Positions 213-40,974 of a stretch of 64,000 bases of DNA are shown here, piece by piece (position 1 is the stretch's first letter; each line of letters starts with the position of its first letter). The notes beneath the pieces were generated by a model. The model was given only the letters and a program-made list of their open reading frames with translations. It was not told the DNA's origin and searched no databases. The translations under genes and the position numbers were made by a program. This stretch comes from Solobacterium sp. (GTDB taxonomy: Bacteria > Bacillota_I > Bacilli_A > Erysipelotrichales > Erysipelotrichaceae). The stretch spans positions 1 to 64,000 of the forward strand of contig JAFUFO010000034.1 in the NCBI GenBank assembly GCA_017469885.1. Direction: 5' to 3'.

Positions 213-256
213 TTCACTGGTTACGCACCGATGGTGTGTTTTTTAAGGAGACTATT

Positions 257-1558: not shown

Positions 1559-1569
1559 GAGAAGATAAC

Positions 1570-18802: not shown

Positions 18803-18855
18803 AAGCATTTCACTGAGGTTCAGTGACCTGTAAAGTATAGTTGGAGGTTTTCTTC

Positions 18856-19881
18856 ATGAGTGAACTGAAAGAATGGCTGGTCGATGTGCCGGTGCAGTTT
18901 AATATCTGGATTCGCCCGGAATGCCAGAGGCGGCAGTGGGAAGTGATTAAGGAGGTCCGTCCGCGGATCTTGTTTGTCGTATCCGACGGCGGCCGCAATG
19001 AAGAAGAGTGGGCGCTGATCAATCAGAACCGGGAACTGATCGATAACGGAATCGACTGGGACTGTGAGGTTCATAAGCTGTACTCGGATAAAAACTACGG
19101 CATGTATCAGAACCAAATGAATGCCAACGAATACATCTGGGACCGCGTTGATCGCTGCATCTTCATGGAAGATGATAATGTGCCCGCAAAGAGTTTCTTT
19201 ACCTTCTGCCGGGATATGCTGGAGAAGTATAAGGATGATGAGCGCATTTCCATGATCTCCGGTCTGAATGTACTGGGCGATTATGATCGTCCAAGTGCGG
19301 ACTATTTCTTCTCCCGCTCCTGCCATGTCTGGGGCTTTGCGACATGGAAGCGGGTATATCAGAACTATTACAACTTCAACTACGGCAAAGACCCCTATGT
19401 CATGGATCTGATTCATAAGGAACTTGGCAATCACACCGCCATGCGGAAGATCATGGATGCCTATGCTGTACAGGAGTACTATCAGGGACACAAGGCATTT
19501 GAAGAATTCTTCCTGGAGTTCAGTTTCTTTGCATATCACCAGCTTGCGATCATACCGACCCGCAATCTGATCAACAATATTGGCGCAACGGAGGATTCTG
19601 CGCACTTTGTGGAATTCAGCCAGCTTCCAAAGGAAGTACAGGCTATCTTCAATATGAAGACATATGAACATGAAGGTCCATGGAAGGATCCGGAATATGT
19701 TGTGCCGGATTACTATTATGACAAGCGCGTCCATGAGATCTATGCGGATATCGGCTGGCCGAAGATCAAACGGCAGATCGAGCGCAAATACCTGTATCTC
19801 AAATCGGGCAAGAGCCTGGTGGCAGGTGTAAAAAAGGTTCTGCGCCGCCATGCAAATTACAATAACGAAATCGAGAAATAA
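18856..19881 (+). CDS. GT-A type glycosyltransferase, paralogue of 27559-28584
   Basis: A 341-residue protein with VDVPVQFNIWIRPECQRRQW at its start, ILFVVSDGGRNEEE (nucleotide pocket) and RCIFMEDDNVPAKSFF (DXD-like metal site near residue 105). The layout resembles eukaryotic-type GlcNAc transferase I-like GT-A proteins found in bacterial glycan loci. GGAGG at 18842-18846 sets ATG 18856. The minus-strand gene at 27559-28584 is a paralogue of the same length (341 residues) with the same motifs. Donor and acceptor are unknown. It is transcribed as a single gene, followed by the capG promoter. Confidence 0.8.
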   Translation: MSELKEWLVDVPVQFNIWIRPECQRRQWEVIKEVRPRILFVVSDGGRNEEEWALINQNRELIDNGIDWDCEVHKLYSDKNYGMYQNQMNANEYIWDRVDRCIFMEDDNVPAKSFFTFCRDMLEKYKDDERISMISGLNVLGDYDRPSADYFFSRSCHVWGFATWKRVYQNYYNFNYGKDPYVMDLIHKELGNHTAMRKIMDAYAVQEYYQGHKAFEEFFLEFSFFAYHQLAIIPTRNLINNIGATEDSAHFVEFSQLPKEVQAIFNMKTYEHEGPWKDPEYVVPDYYYDKRVHEIYADIGWPKIKRQIERKYLYLKSGKSLVAGVKKVLRRHANYNNEIEK

Positions 19882-21090: not shown

Positions 21091-23294
21091 GTTTTCTTGC
21101 GTCGGGATGGGAAGGGTTTGGCTACTATCTCTCCCATTGGAACTCCGATCCGTTTTCCATCGGCTGTGTAATCGTACTTGTGCTGGTGCTCGCCGGATAT
21201 TTTTACGGCTGTATGTTCCGCCATTCGATTCCAGGTCTGGAAAACATGGACTGCACACTGATCGGTATCTGTTTCATTCTGGCGTTGTTTCAGGCAGTCA
21301 TCTTCTTCCTGATTCCGACGGACGGAAATACGGCAATTGCCTATTACGCCATTGCGGGTATCGTTCTGTTTGGGCCGGTGCTGTGCCTGTTTACCTGGTC
21401 AAGCATCATTCCGAGCCGGGACAATCTGATCTCGCTTGTGATCGGCATTGCGTTTACCGCGGTGCTTGTATATGGTTCGTTCAACCTGAATACCAATAAC
21501 ATCTACTTTGACTCCATTACCTATCTTTCCGAAGTGGTGGAAAGCAGTAAGAATGAAGTCTTTGCGCATATGGTATATCCGGGCGGATATCTCCTGAGCC
21601 GGATCGACCCGCTTCATGATTACACCGGTTATTACTATTTCTGGGGAATTCTGATTCGCTGGGCAGTGAATCTGTTTGGCTTTAAGGGTCTTGTTACGCC
21701 GATCTATATCTGGGGCGCAACTGTGCTGTATGGAATGTCACTCGGCATGATCACCGTATGCAGTGCTTCTGTACTGTTCCGGAAGAAGTTCTGGAAGGGG
21801 CTGCTTCTGATCGTTCTGTTCATGGCGCCGTTCTATACCAACTACTTCAACACGACACTGGCGTTCTTCGGCAATACGATCCGGACAGTGATTGTAGGCA
21901 TGATGGTGCTTCTGGTTTATCAGATTCTGCGCCGGCCGAATTCGGCAGCGCTGTTCTTCCCGCTTACAGTCGTTTACTATGCCGGACTGAATGTCAGTTC
22001 GTCCTCGCTGTTTCTGATTGCCCTGATCACAACCGGCATCTTCTTCTCGCTTGCCTTCGGCAATGAGACAAACTGGAAGCGCTGGGCAGGGTTCATCTGT
22101 TCACTGACGCCGCTTGTCCACATGGCAGCTGCGATCGTGCTGAATGATCGGGCAGGGTATCCGGTGATGCTGGGAGGAACGATTGCGGTGATCGGTATTC
22201 TCGTGCTGATTGCCTATCTGCTTCGGAATCACTTTCCGGCTGTAAACAAGGTATTCACGGCACTGTTTCCGATTGCGCTGGTCGGATTGATCGTGGTTTC
22301 CTTCCTGATGCGCAACGGGGATTACGGTTATGGCTATTTCTTCCGTTCGAGTTCCATGGATGATATGACCGTCAATATGACGAGCCATCTGAACGTGAAT
22401 GAGCTGTTCCGGAATATTGTCTTCTATGCGCTTGTGATTCTCATGTTCGCAGAGTTCAAAGTGCAGTCCAAATACAAGCTGTTCCTTGTGATCATTGCGG
22501 CGCTGTTTATCAATCCGCTGGTTCAGCCGGCTGTCTCAAACTTCCTGACGCAGGGGGTTTACAGCCGTGTATTTGATATTCTGGTCAATCCGTTCACGCT
22601 GTGTTTCCTGTTATTCTGTACCGAACGTCTGATCCGGCAGCCGGTACTCAGCTGGGCGGTAATGCTGGTGCTGTGCATATTCATGGGGAAACTTGGCTAT
22701 GATACGCTGACAGGTTCCTATTCCAAGTCGCTGGCCATCGGCACCGAGGAAAACTGGAACTGGGAAGCCAAGGTACGTCAGGATTCCTATGAGCTGTATG
22801 AATATATCAATAATGCACTGGCAACGGATGAATACGATGTGGCGAATCGGGAATATGACAACCGTGTCACGATTCTCTCACAGGATTCCGGTCTGAAAGG
22901 CTACGTCAGAGGAATTGAGCTGGCATTTACGACGGAAGACTTCCGCTCGGCGCTTGCGGGAGATTCCTCCAAGGATATTTCCGAGCGCATGATCAGTCTG
23001 ATGTATCCGGACCGCCGGTATACGGAAGATGATATGGGCGATGTCGGTGATTATTCCAAGCTTGGCAGTCTGTTTCTGGACAGCGAAGCGGATTATATCG
23101 TCATTAACAATACGCTGGCTCTCTGGGATGAGCGCGGCTGGTATGAAAATCCGTATGAGGATCTCATTCGCCGCGGCATGTGCACGAAAGTGTATGAAAA
23201 TGAATCCTGGGCAGTGCTGAAAATGAATCCGGATTATGAACCCGCCGGAAAGCATAATGATCGGTACTGGGTTCATAAATACGAAGAACAATAA
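21075..23294 (+). CDS. Large polytopic membrane protein (DUF6077-like), probable GT-C enzyme
   Basis: A 739-residue protein with about thirteen hydrophobic helices over residues 20-550 and a soluble C-terminal part that ends in a stretch rich in Asp, Glu and Tyr. I see similarity in layout to DUF6077 proteins of Gram-positive glycan loci; the exact family is not certain. The first large loop has NNIYFDSITYLSEVVESSK, an acid-containing loop placed where GT-C enzymes hold their catalytic residue. AGGAGGA at 21064-21070 precedes ATG 21075, which overlaps capG by 16 bp. With the polyprenyl-phosphate GT2 and DUF2304 genes downstream it would make a three-component extracytoplasmic glycosylation system. 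Confidence 0.7.
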   Translation: MAGALSFLASGWEGFGYYLSHWNSDPFSIGCVIVLVLVLAGYFYGCMFRHSIPGLENMDCTLIGICFILALFQAVIFFLIPTDGNTAIAYYAIAGIVLFGPVLCLFTWSSIIPSRDNLISLVIGIAFTAVLVYGSFNLNTNNIYFDSITYLSEVVESSKNEVFAHMVYPGGYLLSRIDPLHDYTGYYYFWGILIRWAVNLFGFKGLVTPIYIWGATVLYGMSLGMITVCSASVLFRKKFWKGLLLIVLFMAPFYTNYFNTTLAFFGNTIRTVIVGMMVLLVYQILRRPNSAALFFPLTVVYYAGLNVSSSSLFLIALITTGIFFSLAFGNETNWKRWAGFICSLTPLVHMAAAIVLNDRAGYPVMLGGTIAVIGILVLIAYLLRNHFPAVNKVFTALFPIALVGLIVVSFLMRNGDYGYGYFFRSSSMDDMTVNMTSHLNVNELFRNIVFYALVILMFAEFKVQSKYKLFLVIIAALFINPLVQPAVSNFLTQGVYSRVFDILVNPFTLCFLLFCTERLIRQPVLSWAVMLVLCIFMGKLGYDTLTGSYSKSLAIGTEENWNWEAKVRQDSYELYEYINNALATDEYDVANREYDNRVTILSQDSGLKGYVRGIELAFTTEDFRSALAGDSSKDISERMISLMYPDRRYTEDDMGDVGDYSKLGSLFLDSEADYIVINNTLALWDERGWYENPYEDLIRRGMCTKVYENESWAVLKMNPDYEPAGKHNDRYWVHKYEEQ

Positions 23295-23305
23295 CAGGGG
23301 AATTT

Positions 23306-24004
23306 GTGAAAACATTAATTGCTATTCCTGCCTATAACGAGGCGGAAAACATCGTCAGAGTAATTACGCACCTGCAGGAAGTCCTTCCGGGTTATGACTA
23401 TGTCATCATCAATGATGGCAGTACGGATAACACGAAGGAAATCTGTCAGGCGAATCACTTTCATATGATCGACCAGGCAGTCAATCTGGGTCTGTCCGGT
23501 ACCTTTCAGTGCGGCATGCGCTATGCACTGAAACATGGCTATGATGCGGTGATTCAGTTTGACGGAGATGGTCAGCACCGGCCGGAATACATTCCTGAAA
23601 TGGAACAGAAGATCAGGAAAGGGGCGGATATCGTCATTGGCAGCCGCTTTCTGACGAAAGCCAAGCCTTCCAGCATGCGTATGCTGGGAAGTAATATGAT
23701 CCAGTTCTTTACAAGACTGACGACCGGGCAGAAACTGAGTGATCCGACGTCCGGCATGCGGATGTATGGAAAACGGGTGATTCAGGTAATGGCGGAACAG
23801 ATCAATCTTGCGCCGGAACCGGATACGATCAGCTATCTGATGCGCTGCGGCGCAAAGACTGCGGAAGTGCAGGTGGAGATGGATGAGCGTATCGCAGGGG
23901 AAAGTTATCTTACAGCCTGGCGCAGTATGCAGTACATGTCCAGTGTCTGCCTCAGCATCTTGTTTATCGGGGCGTTCCGCAAGCGGATACCGTTGGAGGG
24001 TTAA
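23306..24004 (+). CDS. GT2 polyprenyl-phosphate sugar synthase (DPM1-like)
   Basis: A 232-residue family 2 transferase of the dolichol-phosphate-mannose synthase type. It shows IAIPAYNEAENI at the start, VIINDGSTDNT, the DXD-type IQFDGDGQHRPEYI and DPTSGMRMYG, a typical signature set. It lacks the C-terminal membrane helices of the longer GtrB type, and the next gene (DUF2304) supplies a small membrane partner. It would charge undecaprenyl phosphate with a sugar for use outside the membrane by a GT-C enzyme, such as the one upstream. The start is GTG 23306 with GGGGA a few bases before. Confidence 0.9.
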   Translation: MKTLIAIPAYNEAENIVRVITHLQEVLPGYDYVIINDGSTDNTKEICQANHFHMIDQAVNLGLSGTFQCGMRYALKHGYDAVIQFDGDGQHRPEYIPEMEQKIRKGADIVIGSRFLTKAKPSSMRMLGSNMIQFFTRLTTGQKLSDPTSGMRMYGKRVIQVMAEQINLAPEPDTISYLMRCGAKTAEVQVEMDERIAGESYLTAWRSMQYMSSVCLSILFIGAFRKRIPLEG

Positions 24005-24007
24005 GTT

Positions 24008-24376
24008 ATGTCATATCGAGTTCGTATATTGGTCGCAATCGGCGGAATTCTGGTATTCGTATTTATTATTTCCAGCATCCGCCGTTCCAAAATGATGATC
24101 GGTGACAGTGTCTTCTGGTTCCTGTTTTCGCTTGCACTTCTGATTATCGGCATCTTTCCCGAAATGTTCTTTGCGCTTGCAAGAACACTTCATGTCGCAT
24201 CCGCTTCGAACCTTGCGTATCTCTTCCTGATCGGGCTGTTATTGATCCGTATTTTCCAGCAGGATCTCAAAATTTCACAGCTTACGACAAAACTGCAGCG
24301 GCTGGTTCAGAATATGGCCATCTATCAGGCAGACCACTCAGAAGATCGGAAAGAGACACCTTCTGACCGCAAATAA
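24008..24376 (+). CDS. DUF2304 small membrane protein
   Basis: A 122-residue protein with three hydrophobic helices and a C-terminal amphipathic tail (QLTTKLQRLVQNMAIYQ). The family commonly sits next to DPM1-like GT2 enzymes, as here (3-bp gap). It is probably a membrane partner or flippase-like subunit for the polyprenyl-linked sugar made by that enzyme; this role is inferred from co-occurrence. Last gene before a strong terminator. Confidence 0.85.
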   Translation: MSYRVRILVAIGGILVFVFIISSIRRSKMMIGDSVFWFLFSLALLIIGIFPEMFFALARTLHVASASNLAYLFLIGLLLIRIFQQDLKISQLTTKLQRLVQNMAIYQADHSEDRKETPSDRK

Positions 24377-24400
24377 AATTTGGAATCACTTACAGTAACG

Positions 24401-24433
24401 AAATCGTCAGCCCGGGAAAGGCTGCGATTTTTT
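24401..24433 (+). terminator. Rho-independent terminator of capG operon
   Basis: AAATCG-T-CAGCC (24401-24412) pairs with GGCTG-CGATTT (24420-24430) around a GC-rich loop with one bulge, followed by a run of six T. It separates the glycosylation operon from the VTC/DUF4956/CotH unit. Confidence 0.85.
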
Positions 24434-24530
24434 GATGTCTGCGCTGGTTTTATGCCGTATCAGTTTCTGCGGCGGAAATCCGAAGCGGATTATCGAAATG
24501 AAACAGGGTTCGAATAAAGATAAAAAACTG

Positions 24531-24536
24531 TATAAT
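24531..24536 (+). promoter_or_regulatory. Putative -10 box, leaderless start of VTC-domain gene
   Basis: A perfect TATAAT ends 6 nt before ATG 24543. No Shine-Dalgarno sequence precedes that ATG or the alternative ATG at 24498. This supports 24543 as the true start and a leaderless mRNA. Confidence 0.45.
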
Positions 24537-24542
24537 GTCTCC

Positions 24543-25244
24543 ATGCAGGGATTTCGTAACGAATGGAAATACCGTCTTCCGATGACAGATCTGGAAATCA
24601 TCCAGACCCGGCTTGAGGTGCTTCTTTCCAATGACCGGCACAGTGACAAACATGGCGGCTATGGAGTACACAGCCTGTATTTTGATGATTTCTTTGACTC
24701 CTGCGCCAAGGAAAATGACGGCGGAACCGCGGAACGGTTTAAGTACCGCATTCGTTTTTACAATACGTACGAAGGATATCTGAAGCTGGAGCGGAAAGAA
24801 AAACTGTTTGGAAGATGTCGGAAGAAGGCATCTCTGCTTACGGAAAAACAGTATGAAGAAATTATTTCCGGCAGTGCGGAAGAAGTGTACTGGAACACAG
24901 AAGATCCGTTAATCCGGCAGTTCTGTGTGGATATCATGACAAAGGGATTTGCGCCGAAGGCGATTGTTGACTATGAGCGGATTCCGTTTGTGGAGCCTCT
25001 CACCAATGTGCGTGTGACGCTGGACCTCAATATTTCCGCATCAAAGGAAGTTGACCGCTTCCTTGATCTCGATTATCTTAAAATTCCGCTTCAGAAGAAG
25101 GGGGAACATGTGCTGGAAGTGAAATTTGATGAGATTCTTCCAGGATATATCAAACAGGCGGTGACGGTTCCCTCGATGGTACAGACCGCATTCTCAAAAT
25201 ACTACTTTGCACGTAATCTGATTCAATCGACAGGAGGACTCTGA
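24543..25244 (+). CDS. VTC-domain (polyphosphate polymerase-like) protein
   Basis: A 233-residue protein of the VTC catalytic-domain type. The fold is a tunnel lined with basic residues; visible here are FRNEWKYRLP at the start, HSLYFDD, KYRIRFYN, LKLERKEK and, near the end, EVKFDEILPGYI, which match the expected alternating basic/acidic strands. In yeast this domain makes polyphosphate from ATP. In bacteria it usually appears, as here, immediately before DUF4956 and CotH-kinase genes, and its product there is not established. I prefer ATG 24543 to 24498 for the reasons given under the promoter. Confidence 0.85.
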   Translation: MQGFRNEWKYRLPMTDLEIIQTRLEVLLSNDRHSDKHGGYGVHSLYFDDFFDSCAKENDGGTAERFKYRIRFYNTYEGYLKLERKEKLFGRCRKKASLLTEKQYEEIISGSAEEVYWNTEDPLIRQFCVDIMTKGFAPKAIVDYERIPFVEPLTNVRVTLDLNISASKEVDRFLDLDYLKIPLQKKGEHVLEVKFDEILPGYIKQAVTVPSMVQTAFSKYYFARNLIQSTGGL

Positions 25245-25246
25245 AC

Positions 25247-25918
25247 ATGGGTTATATCGAAATTATTCTTGATACATTCCGCAGGGCATTTACGGAATCC
25301 GGCATTGCGGTGGTTACCGTTTTGACGGTTCTGATCATGACCGCATTACTGTCGTTATATGAATATGCCGTATACCGGAATATCTCTCACCGGGCATTTT
25401 ATAACCGGATGTTCAATATCTGTATTGCGGTGATGCCGTCACTGATCGCGACAATCATTCTCTGTTTACAGTCCAATATTGTGATCACACTTGGTACGAT
25501 CGGTGCACTGGCAATCCTGCGTTTCCGTACAGCGGTGAAGGATCCGGTGGACATGCTGTATCTGCTGTGGTCGGTTCATATCGGAATCACCTGTGGTACA
25601 CAGCTGTATGTAGTCGCAATCCTGACATCAGTTGCCGTAACGCTTCTTCTGCTTGTATTTACCAATGTGCAGATTGGAAAGAAACCGTTTGTGGCAGTGA
25701 TCCGCAGTGCCTCGAAAGATCAGGAAGAAGAGATTCTGAATGCGGTGAAATCTGTCACAAAAGCATATCGTGTCAAAAGCCGCAATTATACAAAGAACGG
25801 CGCGGATTATGTGATCGAACTGTCGGTCAAGAATCCTTCCGACCTTACCGCAAAACTCAATACACTGAATCTTGAAAAGTATTCCGTCATTGAATATGAC
25901 AGTGAGGACATCATTTAG
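25247..25918 (+). CDS. DUF4956 membrane protein
   Basis: A 223-residue protein with four hydrophobic helices in the first 150 residues and a cytoplasmic alpha/beta C-terminal domain. The motif TLGTIGALAILRFRTAVKDP is the conserved signature of DUF4956. It starts 2 bp after the VTC-domain gene (AGGAGG before the ATG) and overlaps the CotH gene by one base (TAGTG), so the three are translated together. A role as membrane partner or transporter of the VTC-domain product is plausible but unproven. Confidence 0.9.
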   Translation: MGYIEIILDTFRRAFTESGIAVVTVLTVLIMTALLSLYEYAVYRNISHRAFYNRMFNICIAVMPSLIATIILCLQSNIVITLGTIGALAILRFRTAVKDPVDMLYLLWSVHIGITCGTQLYVVAILTSVAVTLLLLVFTNVQIGKKPFVAVIRSASKDQEEEILNAVKSVTKAYRVKSRNYTKNGADYVIELSVKNPSDLTAKLNTLNLEKYSVIEYDSEDII

Positions 25919-27492
25919 TGTTTCATAAAAAGAAACAGATCATTCAGTTCATTCTTGTCATCGCCGCAGTATTTGCCTGCGCCGGTGTTCTTTACTCGTC
26001 CTCGCCGAAGGGGAGACTGAGCAGTCTTCGGGTCAGCGAAACAGAGTATCAGGCAATCCTTGACTCCCATACGGTCAGTGATAAGGAACTGCTTGGAGAG
26101 GTTTTGCTGAATGGCCGGCCTGTTGTGTATGATCGGGGGAATGATACCTTTTATTATTCGCTGGTCAGAACGGACAATGACTGGACGGATCCGCAGATCA
26201 CAGTGGATGGTTCCGATGTTCAGATCAGGACTCTGTTTTCTGAAATTGATGACCGCTTTCTGGAATCCAACAGCACGATAAAACTGCTTGCCTATAATGA
26301 AACGATATGTCACGAGTACTCCTTGAAACTGACGAGTCTTCCGATGATAAATGTTAAGGCGGATAAGGAGTTTTCCAAGGAACATCCGGCCGCGTTTACA
26401 ATGGAAGTATTTGATAATCGTGACAATGCGCAGGTCTATTACAGTGCCTCAACAGGAATTATTCACCAGCGCGGTAATTCCTCTATGGCATATCCAAAGC
26501 AAAGTTATAAAATCAATCTTAAAACCTCGATTGGCAAAGCAGAATCGCGTGATCCCGATCTGCTTGGTCTTCGGGAAAACAATGAATGGATTCTGTATGC
26601 GCCATATTGGGATCGGGATCTCGTGCGTAATGTATTCACAACGCGGATGTGGAAGGAAAGCTGCGCAAAGCAGAATGAATTCGGCGTGGACAACGGACAT
26701 GATTTCCGCTTTGTGGAATTATTTGTGAATGGAGCGTATGAAGGACTGTATGCCCTTGGATACATGCCGGATGAAGTGCAGATGAAGGTGAATCGGGCGC
26801 TTGGAGAAGTGGAATACAAGAGCCAGGACTGGTTTGATTATGAGAAGGATGCGGATGCGCTCGAAGAATTGTTTTCCATTGTCGATCCGTTCGACGGATT
26901 CAGTGAATATGAGAATAAGAATGCGTGGAAACCGCTTGAAGAATATGTGGCCTCACTCTCTTCCGGCAAACCGCTTGAAGAATACTGGAATGAAATTGAC
27001 CGGGATTCGTTCGAAAATCTGTATCTCTTCACCAATGTGACGCAGGGATTTGACTGTGCGAGAGAAGGCGTTGTAAAAAACTTTTACATTACCGCGAAAT
27101 GGAATGGAGAGCGGCTGAAGATGCTGTATACACCTTGGGACCTTAACCTTACCTGGGGTATGTATTATCAGGAATATCCAATGAATATTGAGGACAATTA
27201 TCTTTATACGTTTGGTCCATTTCACAGATATCCGCCGGAGAATGATCCGGAACAGTTCTCAGAGTTATGTGAGCGATATCGGAACCTGCGGGAGAATTCG
27301 TGGTCCGATGAAGCATTGTTTGCGATCATTGATGAACTGGAAACACAGGTTTTTGATTCCGGAGCCTATCTTCGGAATAAAGAGCGCTGGCCGCACAGTG
27401 ACTTTGCAGAAGAAAAGACGGATCTGTCAGATTTCAAACGGTACGTTTCAGAACGAATGGCATACTGTGATCGCTATTACTCCGAAAACTGA
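25918..27492 (+). CDS. CotH-type atypical kinase, membrane-anchored
   Basis: A 524-residue protein with one N-terminal hydrophobic anchor and an extracytoplasmic CotH domain. CotH proteins are secretory-pathway atypical kinases that phosphorylate proteins. Seen here are IIHQRGNSSMAYPKQSYKI (nucleotide/substrate loop), ENNEWILYAPYWDRDLVRN and YTPWDLNLTWG, where the aspartate of the DFN-like motif lies. The start is GTG 25918 within the upstream stop. Partner of the VTC-domain and DUF4956 proteins; together they may phosphorylate a surface protein or glycan. The target is unknown. Confidence 0.88.
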   Translation: MFHKKKQIIQFILVIAAVFACAGVLYSSSPKGRLSSLRVSETEYQAILDSHTVSDKELLGEVLLNGRPVVYDRGNDTFYYSLVRTDNDWTDPQITVDGSDVQIRTLFSEIDDRFLESNSTIKLLAYNETICHEYSLKLTSLPMINVKADKEFSKEHPAAFTMEVFDNRDNAQVYYSASTGIIHQRGNSSMAYPKQSYKINLKTSIGKAESRDPDLLGLRENNEWILYAPYWDRDLVRNVFTTRMWKESCAKQNEFGVDNGHDFRFVELFVNGAYEGLYALGYMPDEVQMKVNRALGEVEYKSQDWFDYEKDADALEELFSIVDPFDGFSEYENKNAWKPLEEYVASLSSGKPLEEYWNEIDRDSFENLYLFTNVTQGFDCAREGVVKNFYITAKWNGERLKMLYTPWDLNLTWGMYYQEYPMNIEDNYLYTFGPFHRYPPENDPEQFSELCERYRNLRENSWSDEALFAIIDELETQVFDSGAYLRNKERWPHSDFAEEKTDLSDFKRYVSERMAYCDRYYSEN

Positions 27493-27523
27493 ATACTGCC
27501 AGATAAATGCCGGCATAACAAAA

Positions 27524-27555
27524 AGAGGGGATGTATCCTCCGATACGTCCTCTCT
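27524..27555. terminator. Bidirectional terminator
   Basis: A 14-bp stem (27524-27537 with 27542-27555) with two G-U wobbles lies between the forward CotH stop (27492) and the reverse glycosyltransferase stop (27559). A-rich and T-rich flanks serve both directions. Confidence 0.8.
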
Positions 27556-27558
27556 GAT

Positions 27559-28584
27559 TTAATCTTCTTTGAAGGTTCCGTGTTTCAGTTTAATCATCTT
27601 TGCCAAACGGTCTTTGACGTAATCGCCATTGCCGTTTTTTAAATTCAGAAATACGGTTTCCCCATTCCGGTACAGCCGCACCAGAGGATGGCCATAGGCC
27701 ATGATGCGGTTGCGCACCGCTTCATAACGGGTATCCGGGAATACATATTTCGGATGATTCAGCGGGAATTCCAGTTCATAGCGCTTCATATTGAACACTC
27801 TGCGGATACCTTTCGGCAGGTTATCAAGCGCTGCCGCATGGGCCGCATTGGCGTCTGCGCCGATATTGGTGATCATGTTCTTCTTCGGGATGATGAGCAG
27901 CTGATGCTGACCGTAGATCATGAAGTTCATGAAGAATTCACCGCCCGGTTCATGACCGTCATAACGTCCGTATTTTGCGACATTCTCAATCTGCTTATCA
28001 TGGCCGGGCATCAGATCGTGCGCGGCTTTTTCAATGAGTGACATGGTATACGGCTCATCCTTGAAGGCATAGTCATAATACTGTTCATAGGTCCGCTTCC
28101 AGAAGGCATGACCCCAGATACTGCCATAGCGGGAGAAGAAGTAGTCATGTTCCGCCGGTTCGGAGATGCCTTCGTGGTTCATGCCGCAGATCGCATAGAT
28201 GCGCCTGTCATCCTTATACTTTTCCAGCAGTTCTGCGCAATAGCGGAAGAAGCTGACGGAAGGGAGGATGTCATCTTCCAGAAAGATACAGCGGTCGACA
28301 TGCGACCAGACAAACTCGTGCATGGCTTTAATACAGCCATACGTGCCGAGATTGACGTCACTGTAAAAGGACGAGACATTGCATTCCCAGTCAATTTCCG
28401 TCTCAAACATGGTACGGCTGATCTGAATCAGCCGGTTTTCTTCTTCATTGCGTCCGCCGTCAGAAATGATAAGCAGGGTGCTTGGCCGTGCTTCCCGGAG
28501 GATCTCAAACTGTTTTCGCTGGTTCTCAGGGCGGATCCAGATCTGGACCGCTACCGGAACATCTACCAGATATTCTTTTTTCAT
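27559..28584 (-). CDS. GT-A type glycosyltransferase, paralogue of 18856-19881
   Basis: A 341-residue protein sharing start (KKEYLVDVPVAVQIWIRPEN), the ISDGGRNEEENRL pocket and the RCIFLEDDILPSVSFF DXD-like site with the forward gene at 18856, and exactly the same length. Identity looks moderate, so they are old duplicates with probably different acceptors. I chose ATG 28584 over upstream in-frame starts because the length then matches the paralogue and a TATAAT box ends 7 nt before it. It is convergent with the CotH unit and divergent from the regulator gene at 28729. Confidence 0.82.
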   Translation of the reverse strand: MKKEYLVDVPVAVQIWIRPENQRKQFEILREARPSTLLIISDGGRNEEENRLIQISRTMFETEIDWECNVSSFYSDVNLGTYGCIKAMHEFVWSHVDRCIFLEDDILPSVSFFRYCAELLEKYKDDRRIYAICGMNHEGISEPAEHDYFFSRYGSIWGHAFWKRTYEQYYDYAFKDEPYTMSLIEKAAHDLMPGHDKQIENVAKYGRYDGHEPGGEFFMNFMIYGQHQLLIIPKKNMITNIGADANAAHAAALDNLPKGIRRVFNMKRYELEFPLNHPKYVFPDTRYEAVRNRIMAYGHPLVRLYRNGETVFLNLKNGNGDYVKDRLAKMIKLKHGTFKED

Positions 28585-28591
28585 CGGTTTC

Positions 28592-28597
28592 ATTATA
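28592..28597 (-). promoter_or_regulatory. Putative -10 box, leaderless start
   Basis: Minus-strand TATAAT ends 7 nt before ATG 28584, with no ribosome-binding site between. No good -35 is seen. Confidence 0.45.
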
Positions 28598-28674
28598 CCG
28601 GATTCATACGGTTCCATCATGGTATGGTTTCTGACAATATACTGACAATACAATAATAATAAAGTGATATTATA

Positions 28675-28723
28675 CTAACAATACTGATAATTAATGTTAT
28701 AATCAGTATCAGAAAGTTATCAG
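28675..28723 (+). promoter_or_regulatory. Promoter with overlapping inverted repeats (likely autoregulatory operator)
   Basis: CTAACA at 28675-28680 (4 of 6), a 17-bp spacer and TGTTATAAT at 28695-28703 make a good extended -10 promoter. A perfect 8-bp inverted repeat, ATACTGAT at 28681-28688 and ATCAGTAT at 28702-28709, overlaps it. A second, CTGATAA at 28684-28690 with TTATCAG at 28717-28723, is nested. The downstream gene encodes a winged-helix protein, so autoregulation is likely by inference. The flank 28629-28680 is very A/T-rich with repeated ACAATA units. Confidence 0.6.
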
Positions 28724-28728
28724 AACCG

Positions 28729-29694
28729 ATGACAGGTCAGACACAGCACAAGACGAAGACTGGAAACCAGGAATCCGTACTGCGTTACGAACAGGAGTTA
28801 TGTATAACGCAGGATCTTTCCTTTGGAGAGGCGGAGTCCTGTTTTAACATGCACCACAGTGCGCTGACACCGGAAAAGATGCGTGCACTCGGTCTGAAAG
28901 GGAAGAACGGAAACTATACCAATCTTGCTTTATTACTTTCCGATCAGTGTGTTCATACCATGAAGCTGACGGTCTTTCAGGGAACCGGAACCGGTATCCT
29001 GCAGGAATATACCGAACTGCACGGTTCGCTGTTAACACAACTGAAGGAAGCCTATGCGATCCTTGACCGGCTGAACCGGAAACAGATCGTGTTCAGCGGA
29101 CTTACTCAGAATGAACAGCGCAGCTACCCGGCAGAAGCCATACGGGAAGGACTGATGAATGCGGTGCTTCATCGGGAGTATCGGTATAAAGACGCCACAT
29201 TGATAAACATCCATGAAGACCGCATCGAATTTGTGACGCTGGGCGGACTGCCGGAAGGAATTACCATAAACGATCTGAATCTTGGAATCTCCGTATTGCG
29301 CAATCCAGGGCTTGCGCAGGTATTTGCACAGCTTCAAATGCTGGGCGGATTCGGCACAGGAATCCGGGCAATCAGGGATGCCTATGCGGAAGGGTATCAG
29401 ACGCCGGCGTTTGACGCCAGCGATCATGCATTCCGGCTGATTCTGCCAAACCGCAATTACAAGACAGAAAAGCCGTTCTCGCATCTCTCACCGCCGTATC
29501 AGAAGCAGCAGGATGACCGGGAGAAACGAATTGTGGAACTGACACGGAAAAAAGGATATATCTCACGGAAAGACATTGAATCAGAGCTTCATGTTTCCCA
29601 GTCCATGGCAATTCTCATTCTTCGGAAGATGACCGAGAAGGGATTGCTTATCAAAGAGGGAGCCGGGAAAAACCGACTCTACTGGGCGCGATAG
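28729..29694 (+). CDS. AlbA/Schlafen-type ATP-binding regulator lacking its N-terminal domain
   Basis: A 321-residue relative of the widespread ATP-binding transcriptional regulators that normally consist of an AlbA_2 (Schlafen-like) domain, a HATPase-type domain and a C-terminal winged helix (usually about 450-490 residues). Visible are the linker segment YTNLALLLSDQC, the ATPase region AIREGLMNAVLHREYRY and GGFGTGIRAIRDAY, and a terminal winged helix (YISRKDIESELHVSQSMA). The first 120 or so residues of the family, with the AlbA_2 domain, are missing. Either a true short form or a 5'-truncated gene that acquired a new start. No clear ribosome-binding site precedes ATG 28729. Confidence 0.8.
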   Translation: MTGQTQHKTKTGNQESVLRYEQELCITQDLSFGEAESCFNMHHSALTPEKMRALGLKGKNGNYTNLALLLSDQCVHTMKLTVFQGTGTGILQEYTELHGSLLTQLKEAYAILDRLNRKQIVFSGLTQNEQRSYPAEAIREGLMNAVLHREYRYKDATLINIHEDRIEFVTLGGLPEGITINDLNLGISVLRNPGLAQVFAQLQMLGGFGTGIRAIRDAYAEGYQTPAFDASDHAFRLILPNRNYKTEKPFSHLSPPYQKQQDDREKRIVELTRKKGYISRKDIESELHVSQSMAILILRKMTEKGLLIKEGAGKNRLYWAR

Positions 29695-29718
29695 GCAGAC
29701 AACAGGAGGAATGAACAG

Positions 29719-31098
29719 ATGCGAATAACGAAAAACAGATATCGGACGATAACCGCAGGCTTCCTGGCAGCTGCCGCAGTATCGCTGTCCCAGGTTCCGG
29801 TTCATGCGGAAGAAGTGCAGAATGCATGGGATGAAGAATCACGTGTTCATGTGCTGCGCCGCCGGGTCGCGACCGCAATCAATGTATATACGGATGGAAC
29901 GTCGCAGGACATCACCCATGAAGAAGGCATTCTGGATGATGTGGTATATGACATCCTGCGGGTCAATCCAAGTGAACATACCTTTCTTCAGGTGGACTTC
30001 AGTGAAACACCGGGCTTTGTGAATGAACTGAAGGATCCGGAAACCATTGCGCAGGGCTATCAGTATGCCGGAGGAATCAATGCCGGATACTTTATCACCG
30101 GTGAGGACCAGTATGGCCGTCCGGTCGGCGGTGTCCGACGGCATAATGAATGGGTCAACTGGTATCACGACAAATGTGTGCCTGCCTATGGCAGCGGCTT
30201 TGCGACGGCGTATATTACCGGCAGTGAGATGAATCTCAAATATCATGGCTGGCAGTATGGCAGATGGGCCGGGGATCTGGAATGGCAGTGGTTCACCGGT
30301 TATACCATGAACGCAGACTATGCGGTGTCCGGATCGTTTACCTATTTTGCGGATGGCGTTGAACAGGATATTACCCATGGGGATTACGGGGATATCAATT
30401 ACCGCATGTATGGGCGAGCGGTTACCATTCTTGCGCAGCGGCCGGACAAGCAGTATCTTCTGATTACGCTGTATGGAACGGTGGAAGAATCAAGGATTGC
30501 GGACTTCTTAAGAGAACTTGGCGTTGAAGATGCAATTCGTCTCGACGGGGGCGGATCGACCCAGATGGTATATGAAACCGAACTTGTCACCAACGTGGAG
30601 CCGCAGATCGCAAGTACCGCATCGGATGAAATCGAACAGAACGTGACCGATCCGATCGGTTATGTGACCGTGCATGTCGATCAGCTGCGTGTACGCAGAG
30701 CACACCGTACCACAAGCGCCGTCCGCGGTGAGGCGACCAACGGAGAACGCTATCAGGTCTATGAGACCTTTGAGGATGATAACTATACTTGGTACCGTAT
30801 CGGTACGAACCGCTGGATCGCTGGTACCGATGAGTGGGTCACGTATGAGACAATCAACCTGATTGCGGCACCGGAAGAAAATCAGACTGCAGAACCGAAG
30901 ACAATGCGTGTTACAGTAGTTGTGGACAATCTGAACATCCGAAGCGGAGCTGGATTGTCAGACGCAGTTGTTTCAAAAGCAGAAAACGGAAAAACGTATA
31001 CTGCGTATGAAACAACGCAAGCCCAGGGCTATACCTGGTATCGGATTGGAGACAATCAGTGGATCGCCGGAAATCCGGACTGGATCCGTGTGGAATAA
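29719..31098 (+). CDS. Secreted phosphodiester glycosidase with two SH3 repeats
   Basis: A 459-residue exoprotein. A signal peptide ends near VHA|EE (residue 30). Residues about 55-295 form a phosphodiester glycosidase (NAGPA-like) domain with AGGINAGYF and the signature IRLDGGGSTQMV. Two bacterial SH3 repeats follow (about 315-375 and 395-459), each with a WYRIG-x-NxWIAG core, which would bind the cell wall. NAGPA-type enzymes remove a sugar from a phosphodiester, which suits a locus making phosphodiester-linked glycans; the target here is inferred. GGAGGA at 29705-29710 sets the start. Confidence 0.9.
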   Translation: MRITKNRYRTITAGFLAAAAVSLSQVPVHAEEVQNAWDEESRVHVLRRRVATAINVYTDGTSQDITHEEGILDDVVYDILRVNPSEHTFLQVDFSETPGFVNELKDPETIAQGYQYAGGINAGYFITGEDQYGRPVGGVRRHNEWVNWYHDKCVPAYGSGFATAYITGSEMNLKYHGWQYGRWAGDLEWQWFTGYTMNADYAVSGSFTYFADGVEQDITHGDYGDINYRMYGRAVTILAQRPDKQYLLITLYGTVEESRIADFLRELGVEDAIRLDGGGSTQMVYETELVTNVEPQIASTASDEIEQNVTDPIGYVTVHVDQLRVRRAHRTTSAVRGEATNGERYQVYETFEDDNYTWYRIGTNRWIAGTDEWVTYETINLIAAPEENQTAEPKTMRVTVVVDNLNIRSGAGLSDAVVSKAENGKTYTAYETTQAQGYTWYRIGDNQWIAGNPDWIRVE

Positions 31099-37285: not shown

Positions 37286-37705
37286 CGGGTTTTATCTTCC
37301 CAAAGACCTGATCAATCAGGATCGTGAGTCGACAGGGATATGTGCTCCTGCAGGATCTTCTTATGACACTGTCATACACAACACCCATCGAATTGCCTCA
37401 CAATGTTTTATTATAACAATATAAAAGCGGGCTTTCATAATCCGGAAAGCCGCACTGTGCTTGAAACATGCGACATGATTGATCAAACGTCATCGTTTTG
37501 GTGAGAATATTGGCCCAAGCGGTCGTATTAATGGCAGGTTTTACCATACATACAGAGCGGCATTACATTCCCGCCAATGTATCTGCTTAAAAACTGCGCT
37601 GATATAGGCTTTTATTCCGCTCTGTCATCTGGCTTCTGAGTAAGAAATAACGGATTTGAAGTGAGAAATGATCTTCAAAATAGTACAATTACGATTGTGA
37701 ATTAT
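37286..37705. other. Long intergenic region with palindromes and a reverse promoter
   Basis: No gene is seen in these 420 bases. A minus-strand extended -10 (TGTTATAAT, core at 37410-37415) would serve the sulfatase-fold gene, giving a leader of about 130 nt. In that leader lies a perfect palindrome ATGACA-C-TGTCAT (37363-37375). A bulged hairpin at 37427-37453 (GCGG/CCGC arms) follows. ACAGAGCGG at 37552-37560 can pair with CCGCTCTGT at 37617-37625 in the forward direction. None of this matches a riboswitch I know. Confidence 0.5.
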
Positions 37706-39520
37706 ATGAAAAAGAGCACACCGATAACTGACCCCCGTACATTATTCAAAAACAATGTGTCTTATATAAGACTTTTTGTATTTCTCGCCGTTCTGATTCT
37801 GAATCTTCTGACGGTCAAGACCTCAGATGATCTCGGCTATTCGATCAGTAACGGATTGTTTGATCTGTTTCAGCGCGAATATGTCCAGTACATGACCTGG
37901 ACGGGCCGCACGGTTGCCCATCTCATCGCACGGTTCTTCCTGGCAATGCCAAAACTGATCTTTGATGTATGCAATTCAATCATGTTCTGTGTGCTTGTTG
38001 ATCTGATGTGCCGTCATGCGGTCGGACCGAACCGGGACGTAGCCGGTCCGCTGTATGCGGTCACGGCACTGGCGGTGTTTCTGTTTGCGCCGTTATTTGG
38101 ACAGACGGTCCTCTGGGAGACCGGATCCTGTAATTATCTCTGGACGACCACGATCATCCTGGCGTTTCTGTATGTTTACCGGAAGGAACTGGATGGGACT
38201 TCGGAGCGCAAACCATGGTTTGCGGTGCTGTTCTTCCTGTTTGGAATTGCGGCGGGATGGACGAATGAGAATACCGGCGGGGCATGTATCCTGCTGGTGC
38301 TGATCTTCTTCGTCCTGTACCGGCGGAAGAAGATGCCTGTAAAACCATGGATGATTGCCGGTCTGATTGGATCAGTGATCGGATTTGTCCTGATGATCAA
38401 GGCACCGGGCAATGCGATCCGTGCGCAGGATTTCATCAATGAAGGCGGTAAGGCATATGTGCTGGTTCATGACCTGCGCAATACCCTGAATATCTTTGGA
38501 AAACCGGAAGCCCAGCTTCCGCTCTTGCTTGCCTTCGGCGCAGGACTTGCACTTCGTCTGACGAAGGGAATCAGGCGGGAAGACCTGATTCTCGCACTTG
38601 GATATGCACTCTCCGGAATGGCTGCGGTATGCGCTATTATATTAAGTCCGGTACCAGTGGAATTTGACCGGTCGATGTTCGGCGCAACGATTCTGGTAAT
38701 TGTCGGTGTGCTCTCCATTGCGGCACCGCTGTTTGGCGCGCAGAAAACAGAAGTGCACTGGTCCTTGCCGGCACTGCTTGGTGTTATGTGTGTCATATCG
38801 TTGGTTCAGTATGGACATGCATTACTGGATCTTGGCTATACCCGCTATCAGTACACGGTGCGTGAGAAGTGGGTCACTGCCCAGAAGAACGCCGGAAATC
38901 TCAATCCGGTGATTCCGACAATTAACAATGAATTTTTCACAACGTACAATGCGATGTACGGTCTGAATGATATTCTGGATTATCCGTCCTTTGTGAATAA
39001 TGAGAACTATGCGATTACCCATGGACTGGAATCCGTGGTTTCCACATCGCTGGATAAATGGAATGCCATCTATCGAAACGGCGATCCGGCATTAATGAAT
39101 GTGGTTGATCTTGAGCGTTATCTTGCGGCGGTAAAGGCAAATCCCGATTACATCGGCTTTGTGACAACGACCGCTTTGAACGAGCGTTATGAAGCGTATC
39201 TCGATCTTCTGGAAACGGCAGTCGGGAAGAACCTCGGTACACATTCCAATTACATTCTGGAATTCGGCGCGGAAACGGATGTCAATGGCGCAGAGGAATC
39301 CTTCGGGAAGGAATATACCCCGGATGGACATTATGTCTGGGTATACAGCAGTGATGATCCGATGACCAGTGACATTCTGATTGACGGTATGGAATGTACG
39401 AATGATCTCGAAGGCGTCACGATCGCGATATTCGATCGGGCGTCCGGAACGGTGATGGATGCGGTCACCTGGAATACGGACTACGCAATGCGCGGAATCC
39501 GTTCCTACGTGGAGAAGTGA
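37706..39520 (+). CDS. DUF6056-type membrane protein (probable GT-C enzyme), copy 1
   Basis: A 604-residue polytopic protein with about ten to twelve hydrophobic helices and a soluble C-terminal region. The first extracytoplasmic loop has SDDLGYSISNGLFDLF and YMTWTGRTVAHLIARF, a DD-containing loop placed as in GT-C enzymes. The following gene encodes a shorter relative with the same DD and TWxGR landmarks. Probably transfers a sugar outside the membrane; substrate unknown. I prefer ATG 37706; the in-frame GTG 37661 would add 15 residues, and neither has a good ribosome-binding site. The next gene overlaps by one base. Confidence 0.75.
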   Translation: MKKSTPITDPRTLFKNNVSYIRLFVFLAVLILNLLTVKTSDDLGYSISNGLFDLFQREYVQYMTWTGRTVAHLIARFFLAMPKLIFDVCNSIMFCVLVDLMCRHAVGPNRDVAGPLYAVTALAVFLFAPLFGQTVLWETGSCNYLWTTTIILAFLYVYRKELDGTSERKPWFAVLFFLFGIAAGWTNENTGGACILLVLIFFVLYRRKKMPVKPWMIAGLIGSVIGFVLMIKAPGNAIRAQDFINEGGKAYVLVHDLRNTLNIFGKPEAQLPLLLAFGAGLALRLTKGIRREDLILALGYALSGMAAVCAIILSPVPVEFDRSMFGATILVIVGVLSIAAPLFGAQKTEVHWSLPALLGVMCVISLVQYGHALLDLGYTRYQYTVREKWVTAQKNAGNLNPVIPTINNEFFTTYNAMYGLNDILDYPSFVNNENYAITHGLESVVSTSLDKWNAIYRNGDPALMNVVDLERYLAAVKANPDYIGFVTTTALNERYEAYLDLLETAVGKNLGTHSNYILEFGAETDVNGAEESFGKEYTPDGHYVWVYSSDDPMTSDILIDGMECTNDLEGVTIAIFDRASGTVMDAVTWNTDYAMRGIRSYVEK

Positions 39521-40974
39521 TGAAGAAACTGATAAACAACAGAACCGCAGTATGCATGATCATGATCACAGGAATCTTTTTCCTGTTTTTCGCGCTGATC
39601 ACGCACTGGACACCGGCCAGCGGTGATGACTGGGTCTATGCGGTCGGAGGTATGTGGAATAATCCGTTCAAACAGGCGTTTACGATGTATCAGACCTGGT
39701 CGGGACGGTATCTGAGCGAACTCTGGGGCTTCCTTGTGGCACCGCATAAAAACCTCTGGAATGTACTGAATCCCTTGCTGTTTACGGGAATCTTCCTGTT
39801 ACTGGTGAGGCTGTCCGACACAAAACGTCCGGTTCTGACCGCGTTGCTGGCGATGGCATTGATGTTCAGTGTGGGAAACCGGGTGCGCATGCAGACATAT
39901 ACCTGGATCATGGGCACAACCTATGTACTGCCGCTGTTTTTCTTCCTGATCCAGATCTGGATCCTGAAAGGATGGCTTGCGGAAGACAAGCCGCCTGTAT
40001 GGAAAACCATCGCGTTATGCATTCTCAGCTTCTGCATTCCGCTCTATATGGAAAATGCTGCGGCGATGATCTTCGGCGGAGATCTTCTGGTCCTGATTTA
40101 CTGTTACTGCACGAAGAATCCAAACTTGAAGAAGATGATCCTCATCTTCGGTTTTGCAGTAGTTGGATCCGCGATCATTCTGGGTTCTCCCGGTGCGGCT
40201 TCCCGCATGGCCAATGACAATGCCGCATTCAATGCGCTGAGTCTCGGCGAAAAACTGGCCCAGAACTGGCCGCTGTTTCTTGAACGCAGCTTTATGGAAA
40301 GCCTCTGGATCACGATCGCCTTTACGCTGTTTACATTGCTTTGGGCAGAACGGCACCGCAATGAACATAAGCCGCTCTACGGGCTCATCGGGCTTGGTTT
40401 TGTGACGCTTCTGGCCGGTCAGGGGCTGCTGTATCTGATCTATACGATCGTATTCCTTGCGGCGTATATCGCATTTGAAAAACACTCCCTTAAGAAGTGG
40501 TATGTGGTATATCTGGTGCTCTGTGCCGGCGGGGCAGATGTGGTGATGCTGATGTCGCCGATCTTTGACAGCCGCTCCAGCCTGTATACGGTTTATCTTT
40601 TATTACTGACGGCACTGGTGCTGTTTCAGGAAATACCTCTTGCAAAGAAGGAATTCCGTTATGTGCTTGCGGCACTGTTCTGCGGCATCTCGATCTGGCG
40701 CATGGTTTCCTATTATGACATCTATCATCTCGTCCATCTCATCAATATCCGCCGTTACCAGCAGGTCGAATATTACCGGCTCCGCCCGGATGCCGGTGAT
40801 GCCTGGCTCATGGCCTATCCGGATGAATCCATCCATTCCCCGAATGTTCTGGAAGGGGATGATACCCATATGTATTACTTCAAGGAATATTACAGTCTGA
40901 GTCAGGATCTGCATCTGGTTTTCTATTATCTGGACGAATATAACGCGGAGACGATCTTCGCGCCGCAGGAGTGA
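39520..40974 (+). CDS. DUF6056-type membrane protein, copy 2
   Basis: A 484-residue polytopic protein with about ten helices. It has ASGDDWVYAVGG and MYQTWSGRYLSELWGFL in the first outer loop, matching copy 1, and GNRVRMQTYTWIMGTTYVLP, a conserved second segment. It lacks the long C-terminal domain of copy 1. GGAGAAG at 39511-39517 and the ATG overlap with the preceding TGA show translational coupling. Tandem duplicates with different C-termini suggest two sugar transfers to the same polymer. The donor is unknown. Confidence 0.78.
   Translation: MKKLINNRTAVCMIMITGIFFLFFALITHWTPASGDDWVYAVGGMWNNPFKQAFTMYQTWSGRYLSELWGFLVAPHKNLWNVLNPLLFTGIFLLLVRLSDTKRPVLTALLAMALMFSVGNRVRMQTYTWIMGTTYVLPLFFFLIQIWILKGWLAEDKPPVWKTIALCILSFCIPLYMENAAAMIFGGDLLVLIYCYCTKNPNLKKMILIFGFAVVGSAIILGSPGAASRMANDNAAFNALSLGEKLAQNWPLFLERSFMESLWITIAFTLFTLLWAERHRNEHKPLYGLIGLGFVTLLAGQGLLYLIYTIVFLAAYIAFEKHSLKKWYVVYLVLCAGGADVVMLMSPIFDSRSSLYTVYLLLLTALVLFQEIPLAKKEFRYVLAALFCGISIWRMVSYYDIYHLVHLINIRRYQQVEYYRLRPDAGDAWLMAYPDESIHSPNVLEGDDTHMYYFKEYYSLSQDLHLVFYYLDEYNAETIFAPQE

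Follow-up and report, generated by a model that had tools for sequence, protein, structure and literature searches.

The stretch of DNA considered here (the window) comprises positions 1 to 64,000 of contig JAFUFO010000034.1 of a Solobacterium sp. (GenBank assembly GCA_017469885.1), and it holds at 24543-27492 a plus-strand trio of genes encoding a VTC-domain protein (PF09359), a DUF4956 membrane protein (PF16316) and a CotH-family protein (PF08757). Based on the collective evidence, the trio is tentatively understood as a system in which VTC makes polyphosphate, DUF4956 aids its export and an anchored CotH uses it on a surface protein or exopolysaccharide, with Cthe_2159 in place of CotH in a sister branch; we put the probability of this reading at about 0.4. 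To operate in this way, the VTC protein would polymerise phosphate from nucleoside triphosphate in the cytosol, in the manner of Vtc4; DUF4956, its near-constant partner, would help the chain across the membrane, the role that the transmembrane domains have in eukaryotic VTC; and CotH, anchored outside, could receive the polymer as phosphate donor or as an attachable group and place phosphate on its surface substrate. The exported Cthe_2159 beta-helix protein that replaces CotH in the sister branch could bind the polymer. The observed part of this scenario comprises the coupling of the genes, the active-site residues, the folds, the export-type N-termini of the third partners and the split into two clades.

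The three proteins

Polyphosphate chemistry in the cytosol appears well supported for the VTC protein, as judged from its sequence. Searches of solved structures with single sequences (phmmer) returned chance hits only, and alignment profiles were used instead. The VTC profile (38 relatives) matches yeast VTC4 structures (best 3g3q, E 8e-20), and the PF09359 tunnel domain scores over its cut-off, the Pfam match reaching profile position 229 of 235. Aligned with Vtc4, residues K9, R69, R71, K85, K94, R146, R157, E192 and K219 occupy the positions of K200, R264, R266, K281, K294, R361, R373, E426 and K458, and all nine are invariant in 38/38 aligned rows. The equivalence to E426 and K458 falls in a second alignment stretch that scores only 2.1 bits, and is therefore based on the LEVK and SK motifs common to both and on the extent of the Pfam match. 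The basic tunnel residues beyond R264, R266 and E426 are those we take to complete the active site of Vtc4. The chain of ~233 residues is a VTC domain only, with neither the SPX domain nor the fused transmembrane domain of the eukaryotic complex, and it shows no N-terminal hydrophobic segment above threshold. Vtc4 carrying R264A/R266A/E426N is catalytically impaired (PMC9911596). The link from the VTC family to polyphosphate synthesis, drawn in a previous reading of the window from its sequence only, thus gains from the apparent presence of the residues for it.

The DUF4956 protein exceeds the Pfam cut-off of its own family (37.4 bits against 30.6) and falls short of that for MgtC (PF02308, E 0.0023, 18.7 bits against 31.4). 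Its AlphaFold2 model (mean predicted local distance difference test, pLDDT, 88.6) comprises hydrophobic helices at 22-140 and an ACT/ferredoxin-like domain at 146-216, for which structure comparison finds ACT-like domains, including the C-terminal domain of MgtC (2lqj). A homologue from Streptococcus intermedius is described as having four transmembrane segments and an intracellular ACT domain (PMC12345266). Positions 92 and 94 are basic in every row of a 56-row alignment, as is position 98 in 21/21 rows of another (A5), whose rows were picked mainly for CotH neighbours. In the model, 92 and 94 fall where helix 4 ends, next to the membrane, and this fits polyphosphate export, for which a basic entry would be required. 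In yeast, synthesis and translocation of polyphosphate are coupled through a basic channel (PMC9911596). Given that the yeast tunnel polymerase is coupled to a membrane exit, and that DUF4956 is rarely far from VTC, DUF4956 presents itself as the natural candidate for such an exit.

The CotH protein starts with KKK and a hydrophobic anchor (from residue 11, mean Kyte-Doolittle value 2.94), continues with a mostly beta stretch of low confidence and carries its kinase domain at ~140-524; the succession of KKK and hydrophobic stretch at the N-terminus predicts that the kinase domain lies outside the membrane. Its profile (20 rows) matches Bacillus cereus CotH with E 4.6e-30. The model, of middling confidence (mean pLDDT 63.7), compares with that protein's structure (5jd9) at Z 25.6 and a root-mean-square deviation of 3.9 over 314 aligned residues, the best non-CotH rows having Z 13. 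D379 and D408, invariant in 20/20 aligned rows, are mapped to D228 and D251 of Bacillus subtilis CotH by alignment and by the 23-residue spacing in B. cereus. The changes D228Q and D251A inactivate the B. subtilis enzyme (PMC7821199). That CotH is a kinase of the secretory pathway, as had been proposed, is in keeping with the kinase fold and the anchor predicted here. A WDxN as opposed to a WDxD signature was tried as a mark of trio-linked and orphan CotH copies and was dropped for want of a clean split (linked copies: 50 N, 38 D, 51 without the pattern). A scan of the trio proteins against NCBIfam gave no match that reached cut-off.

Gene coupling and the choice of third partner

Tight coupling of the three genes, already claimed from the letters, is confirmed by the open reading frames, by Pfam scores over the cut-offs and by the spacing: 2 bp separate VTC from DUF4956, whose start is preceded by AGGAGG (a good ribosome site), and DUF4956 and CotH overlap by 1 bp. 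Across genomes, we compared 145 members of the window's family and 120 of its phylum, the window's own genome and G026 belonging to both samples, and a set of named loci, the best 80 among the matches listed and mostly Lachnospiraceae; the co-occurrence tests ignore kinship between genomes. DUF4956 is matched in 87, VTC in 88 and CotH in 62 of the 145 family genomes, and DUF4956 and VTC occur together in 85, DUF4956 without VTC in 2, VTC without DUF4956 in 3 and neither in 55. A VTC gene adjoins DUF4956 on the same strand within 2 kb for 109/113 DUF4956 matches (2 of the 113 below the Pfam cut-off), an adjacency beyond chance; of the four left over, three are at contig ends, one of these with a terminal VTC fragment, and one has its VTC under a masked stretch. 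Seen from the other gene, 108/114 VTC matches have DUF4956 beside them, and the other six include fragments and contig ends as well as G044 and G110. Of 14 control genomes, three have DUF4956, and VTC is found in these same three. Among the named loci, VTC is near 82/86 DUF4956 genes; of the remaining four, one lies where a contig begins, and three (L118, L126 and L146) truly lack VTC, to the extent that the hidden Markov model (HMM) can tell. An absolute need of DUF4956 for an adjacent VTC is rejected on account of these three. In L118 (670-3987) the DUF4956 gene stands behind LicD and a flippase-like gene. Fusions among the trio proteins are not evident in the DUF4956 frames (186-282 aa) or the VTC frames (199-401 aa).

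CotH is attached to this pair less strictly. In the family sample 63/86 CotH genes are within 4 kb of VTC or DUF4956 (86 genes from 91 rows, the second pieces of five genes being dropped), and of the other 23, one of them below the Pfam cut-off, 20 are in genomes that have VTC and 3 are not. VTC is present in 15/18 genomes with an orphan CotH as compared to 73/127 others, a slight excess (p 0.04); in the phylum sample it occurs in 11/18 genomes with CotH and in 5/102 without. An obligate need of CotH for VTC is rejected as an absolute rule, since CotH genomes without VTC occur in both samples. The window's own genome has a second VTC-DUF4956 pair (L032 8019-9466) with no CotH or Cthe_2159 near, an orphan CotH (L266 6917-8539) that probably starts with a lipoprotein signal, and PPK1 (L267 5510-7804). 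Multiple VTC/DUF4956/CotH sets were seen in Lachnospiraceae IMSAGC_005 (L132 43-13428; three in 13.4 kb, of which the last is truncated where the locus ends) and in L105 and L130 (two each). One two-contig genome, contaminated at 10%, has three DUF4956 matches of similar score spaced by exactly 71006 bases (G112:C1 2347548, 2418554, 2489560), owing either to tandem repetition of 71 kb or to an artefact of assembly.

The third gene comes in two flavours. In 110 family DUF4956 neighbourhoods, from which the window's own and two identical extra G112 copies were excluded, CotH is found within 2.5 kb of DUF4956 in 62, Cthe_2159 in 38 and neither in 10; the trio was said to be frequent in bacteria and is common among the relatives searched. 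Cthe_2159, a beta-helix protein usually with an export signal, was assigned by Pfam to 29/34 non-CotH neighbours in the first 60 loci; the Cthe_2159 counts are those of a rebuilt HMM, a looser version of which (34 neighbours, 29 Cthe_2159) mislabelled L032, L064, L072 and L083. In the best 80 named loci a Cthe_2159-like gene is near 9/86 DUF4956 genes, in 8 cases together with CotH. The third partner looks exported, as judged by an N-terminal hydrophobic segment in 57/62 CotH and 33/36 Cthe_2159 proteins of the family against 12/106 VTC proteins, and in 67/73, 9/9 and 0/80, respectively, for the named loci. The DUF4956 tree (110 rows: 109 from the family, one short fragment being dropped, and the window) splits 40/70 on branches with support 100/100. 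The clade of 40 has 34 Cthe_2159-type rows, 6 with neither partner and 0 with CotH, and the clade of 70 has 62 CotH-type rows and the window, 4 of Cthe_2159 type and 3 with neither. The VTC tree (106 rows) splits 39/67 likewise, into 33 Cthe_2159 and 6 neither versus 61 CotH, 4 Cthe_2159 and 2 neither. In both trees the two supported clades thus nearly follow the choice between CotH and Cthe_2159, and the outside partner changes along with the membrane protein, which is what coupling, whether direct or through the product, would predict. As far as can be seen, what CotH and Cthe_2159 have in common is that they look exported and go with the same gene pair, which would suggest a shared product delivered outside. 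Within the tree, the window's DUF4956 is a long branch grouping with L071 and L245 (99/96); its closest relative among the matches listed is from Lachnospiraceae IMSAGC_005 (L132), at 47% identity.

Exported polyphosphate would answer how a kinase outside obtains its phosphate, ATP being scarce beyond the membrane. In the strictest version of this idea VTC and DUF4956 form a polyphosphate synthase-translocase, the exported polymer is the donor or graft of a CotH that phosphorylates or polyphosphorylates surface proteins and exopolysaccharides independently of ATP, and the Cthe_2159 branch is a polyphosphate-binding sister; so complete a version we consider unlikely.

A number of points weigh against polyphosphate export and use by the trio. 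DUF4956 resembles MgtC and not a known channel, which makes translocation the step most at risk, and no likeness to Vtc1/DUF202 is found among the Pfam and structure matches listed. The DUF4956 genes of L118, L126 and L146 have no detectable VTC and are away from contig ends. No VTC match is found in 7/18 CotH genomes of the phylum sample, 4 of the 7 with lipoprotein-like CotH N-termini, and three family genomes have CotH without VTC, a fourth (G116) having a DUF4956 gene cut at a contig end. PPK1 is present in the window's genome also. Common inheritance of linked genes could by itself give the shared split of the trees. No polyphosphate, transport or kinase assay was found for any trio, and the statement of the sequence-only reading that the substrate is not established remains true. 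Finally, CotH of B. subtilis uses ATP (PMC7821199). In S. intermedius, single deletions of VTC, DUF4956, CotH and DUF4832, the four accessory genes of the pel locus, all still aggregated; aggregation in artificial sputum medium decreased by more than half on deletion of SIR_1592 (DUF4956) or SIR_1594 (CotH), and deletion of SIR_1593 (VTC) left aggregation in place (PMC12345266). That no loss of aggregation is reported for the SIR_1593 deletion speaks against a VTC-dependent CotH in that strain and medium. The amount of Pel moved in opposite directions, being higher in the DUF4956 deletion and lower in the CotH deletion (PMC12345266).

Several of these points would be accommodated if CotH were an ordinary ATP kinase that acts on a surface protein or polymer with ATP from leakage or lysis, VTC and DUF4956 serving to tune phosphate or nucleotide supply with no export involved. 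The ATP use of the B. subtilis enzyme, the exported CotH proteins in genomes without VTC and the different effects of CotH and VTC deletion on aggregation all speak for it. However, it leaves unexplained that VTC and DUF4956 are rarely apart and that the partner outside can be a beta-helix protein which is no kinase, and it accords poorly with the 63 family CotH genes beside the pair and the 20 more in VTC genomes; overall we hold it to be rather unlikely. Alternatively, polyphosphate could stay in the cytosol, with the ACT-like domain of DUF4956 sensing polyphosphate or nucleotide and controlling exopolysaccharide synthesis or export, for which CotH would be an output. The opposite changes of Pel agree with such control, as does the regulation by phosphorylation suggested for these accessory genes in the pel loci of streptococci and clostridia, described as CotH, poly-phosphate polymerase, DUF4956 and DUF4832 (PMC7112168). 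Two unrelated exported partners, and the many copies with no recognised exopolysaccharide gene near, are difficult to reconcile with a sensor, and we regard it as quite improbable.

Glycan genes and signals around the trio

The trio had been placed inside a glycan locus among phosphate-decorated glycan genes, and for the window this holds. Upstream are genes for GT2 and DUF2304 proteins (Pfam), and the window further encodes an O-antigen ligase-like protein, LicD and sulfatase-fold proteins. At 236-3131 a phosphoenolpyruvate (PEP) mutase that carries a fused cytidylyltransferase domain, a further cytidylyltransferase and a thiamine pyrophosphate (TPP) enzyme likely constitute a phosphonate activation route for a glycan; 29719-31098, near the trio, encodes a partial match to the NAGPA phosphodiester glycosidase with SH3 repeats. 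With PEP mutase, cytidylyltransferases, LicD and the NAGPA-like domain in the window, the trio sits in a phosphate/phosphonate-rich glycan locus. No pel genes were recognised by Pfam among the scanned window proteins, and a contiguous pelDEADAFG was not found.

Beyond the window, the link to glycans is partial. The scan for operon partners covered 83 CotH-type loci and 149 proteins in two sets, the top 25 families being taken per set: the first 78 proteins gave GT2 (14), the RsgI middle domain (6), HEAT (5), bacterial sugar transferase (3), LytR-CpsA-Psr (LCP, 3), PelG (2) and YfhO (1), and the other 71 gave GH25 (6), HATPase (6), GT2 (3) and YfhO (2). Among the first 23 CotH loci, seven have a common order: VTC, DUF4956, CotH, a ~700 aa protein, a 179-414 aa protein and a GT2 synthase of ~465 aa. 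In two of them VTC and DUF4956 are separated, by an extra gene in L082 and by a transposase-like gene in L073. The HMM detects the GT2 in each of the seven synthase operons as well as in L224 and L233; for L082, Pfam bears out both HEAT and GT2. Two of the first 23 CotH loci are pel operons, and GT2/LCP clusters occur in 7/22 nearest relatives of the window. In L033, L061, L077, L086 and L087 the trio is adjoined by genes which, from their sequence, we take to encode a sigma-I factor and RsgI.

For a quantitative comparison we used a small set of home-built HMMs (GT2, GT4, YfhO, flippase, LicD, PelG, LCP, GtrA). A glycan gene is within 7 kb in 17/62 CotH-type, 6/38 Cthe_2159-type and 1/10 other family loci and in 5/40 random stretches, a rough control at hand-picked round coordinates in same-family genomes with long contigs, and many trio contigs end within that distance. 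The CotH-type excess has Fisher p 0.09 against random and 0.23 against the Cthe_2159 type. The 40 loci nearest the window give 13/40 (p 0.06), and the best 80 named loci, to which the control is ill-suited as they are mostly Lachnospiraceae, give 13/68 for the CotH type, 0/1 for the Cthe_2159 type and 7/17 for neither. Within 3.5 kb there is no difference in the family (5/62, 3/38 and 1/10 against 3/40 random; HMM set without GtrA). Strict association with glycan genes was therefore rejected as a general rule (17/62 against 5/40). Random placement relative to glycan genes, named beforehand as the outcome that would count against the sequence-only reading, thus receives a divided answer: the seven GT2-synthase operons, the two pel operons and the GT2/LCP clusters speak against it, and the counts fall short of a clear excess. 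With conserved operons on the one hand and, on the other, a recognised glycan gene within 7 kb of only 17/62 CotH-type copies, the glycan link amounts to a number of conserved operons in a system that is wider and often stands alone.

These results bear on the suggestion, made from the window, that CotH phosphorylates the sugars of a polymer built by the neighbouring genes. Such a function would lead one to expect the window neighbours and the conserved operons in which the trio accompanies GT2 synthases, Pel genes or GT2/LCP clusters. The remaining 45/62 family CotH-type copies are without a recognised glycan gene within 7 kb (many contigs being short and the HMM set small), and there is none in L132, L099, L100 or L101, all close relatives, though for three of these the stretch is short; on balance we find a local sugar substrate highly doubtful. 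The idea that the trio phosphorylates a surface component in a glycan locus is supported by the active-site residues, the kinase fold and the glycan genes of the window, and across genomes the linkage to glycan genes is partial.

The signals flanking the trio (Table 1) bear unevenly on the previous assignment of an own promoter and of terminators on both sides. The downstream stem is strong, and the better of its T-runs is on the minus strand, so that the convergent gene probably uses it too; the upstream stem, behind the GT2-DUF2304 genes, is weak. In all, 22000-30000 contains 12 terminator-like sites, shuffles giving 6.6 +/- 2.4. The promoter scan (12 sites overall, 11.6 expected) returned none on the plus strand of 22000-25000. 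The TATAAT listed is only 6 nt ahead of ATG 24543, allowing for hardly any leader, and the promoter is not confirmed. The VTC frame opens at TTG 24432 and has further ATGs at 24435 and 24498; ATG 24543 is the likely start, not a settled one.

Table 1. Features of the VTC-DUF4956-CotH trio and its flanks (window coordinates)
Feature	Position	Strand	Remarks
VTC-domain protein	24543..25244	+	233 aa from ATG 24543; predicted cytosolic polyphosphate polymerase; PF09359 E 1.2e-27
VTC R69-I-R71 codons (= Vtc4 R264/R266)	24747..24755	+	alignment with Vtc4
VTC E192 codon (= Vtc4 E426)	25116-25118	+	alignment with Vtc4
DUF4956 membrane protein	25247..25918	+	223 aa; PF16316 E 2.8e-9
CotH-family kinase-like protein	25918..27492	+	524 aa, GTG start; PF08757 E 1.1e-27
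CotH D379 codon (= B. subtilis CotH D228 position)	27052..27054	+	alignment
CotH D408 codon (= B. subtilis CotH D251 position)	27139-27141	+	alignment
Short terminator-like stem	24408..24424	+	5 pairs with T-run, upstream of trio
TATAAT, possible -10 box	24531..24536	+	-35 TTCGAA poor (3 of 6); absent from promoter-scan output
Terminator-like stem, possibly bidirectional	27524..27555	.	14 pairs, downstream of CotH

Elsewhere in the window, two look-alike proteins (18841-19881, plus strand; 27559-28653, minus strand) share DVPV..IWIRPE.QR and SDGGRNEEE by eye, have no Pfam match at E 0.01 and are perhaps glycosyltransferases of an undescribed family. Two neighbouring DUF6056 membrane proteins, both above the Pfam cut-off, are encoded at 37661-40974 within the glycan locus.

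Relation to known systems

In the literature found, the trio figures only as unexplained pel accessory genes and in one pathogenicity locus; it is thus already in print from pel loci, and the wider two-flavour system is not described as such. Titles and abstract openings on bacterial VTC, DUF4956, CotH-polyphosphate, Cthe_2159 and exported kinases yielded no proposal of export by VTC-DUF4956. Were such export true, it would constitute a second bacterial route of polyphosphate besides PPK1, one that delivers outside the cell, and the feeding of extracellular bacterial kinases would become a testable question. CotH and Cthe_2159, as alternative partners, offer a clean comparison. The mechanism is testable and potentially important.

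The accessory genes of Gram-positive pel loci comprise the same three families in adjacency, as seen in L072 and L083, where PelG and PelF-like genes precede the trio and DUF4832 follows it. By contrast, the window has no recognised pel gene beside its trio. A PelG model built on L072 and L083 matched no others among 189 loci with a trio or pair, the model being narrow and many contigs short. In the analyses of the 2025 S. intermedius study, the order of the three genes did not turn up anywhere but in the Pel locus (PMC12345266); the window and the loci without recognised pel genes speak against this as a general statement.

NELoc-2 of Clostridium perfringens contains VTC, a 222-226 aa 'tubulin/FtsZ' protein, CotH, a 685 aa protein, HEAT repeats and a glycosyltransferase (PMC2879425), that is, the gene order of the seven GT2-synthase loci; from its position and length we infer that the 222-226 aa protein is DUF4956. 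Like the trios adjoined by sigma-I-type genes, that of NELoc-2 has SgiI beside it. A feature of its own is the doubled VTC pair with a resolvase in between, and it differs from the window, whose trio has no adjoining 700 aa, HEAT and synthase genes.

The spore coat kinase CotH of B. subtilis and B. cereus works in the mother cell. The window's CotH has its fold and both catalytic aspartates, and is distinct in its predicted anchoring outside the membrane and in its tie to VTC-DUF4956. With the eukaryotic VTC complex (Vtc1/Vtc3/Vtc4) the system has in common a catalytic tunnel domain with the same active-site residues and a membrane-protein partner; it departs from that complex in lacking SPX and a fused transmembrane domain, and its membrane partner is MgtC/ACT-like and, as far as seen, not Vtc1-like.

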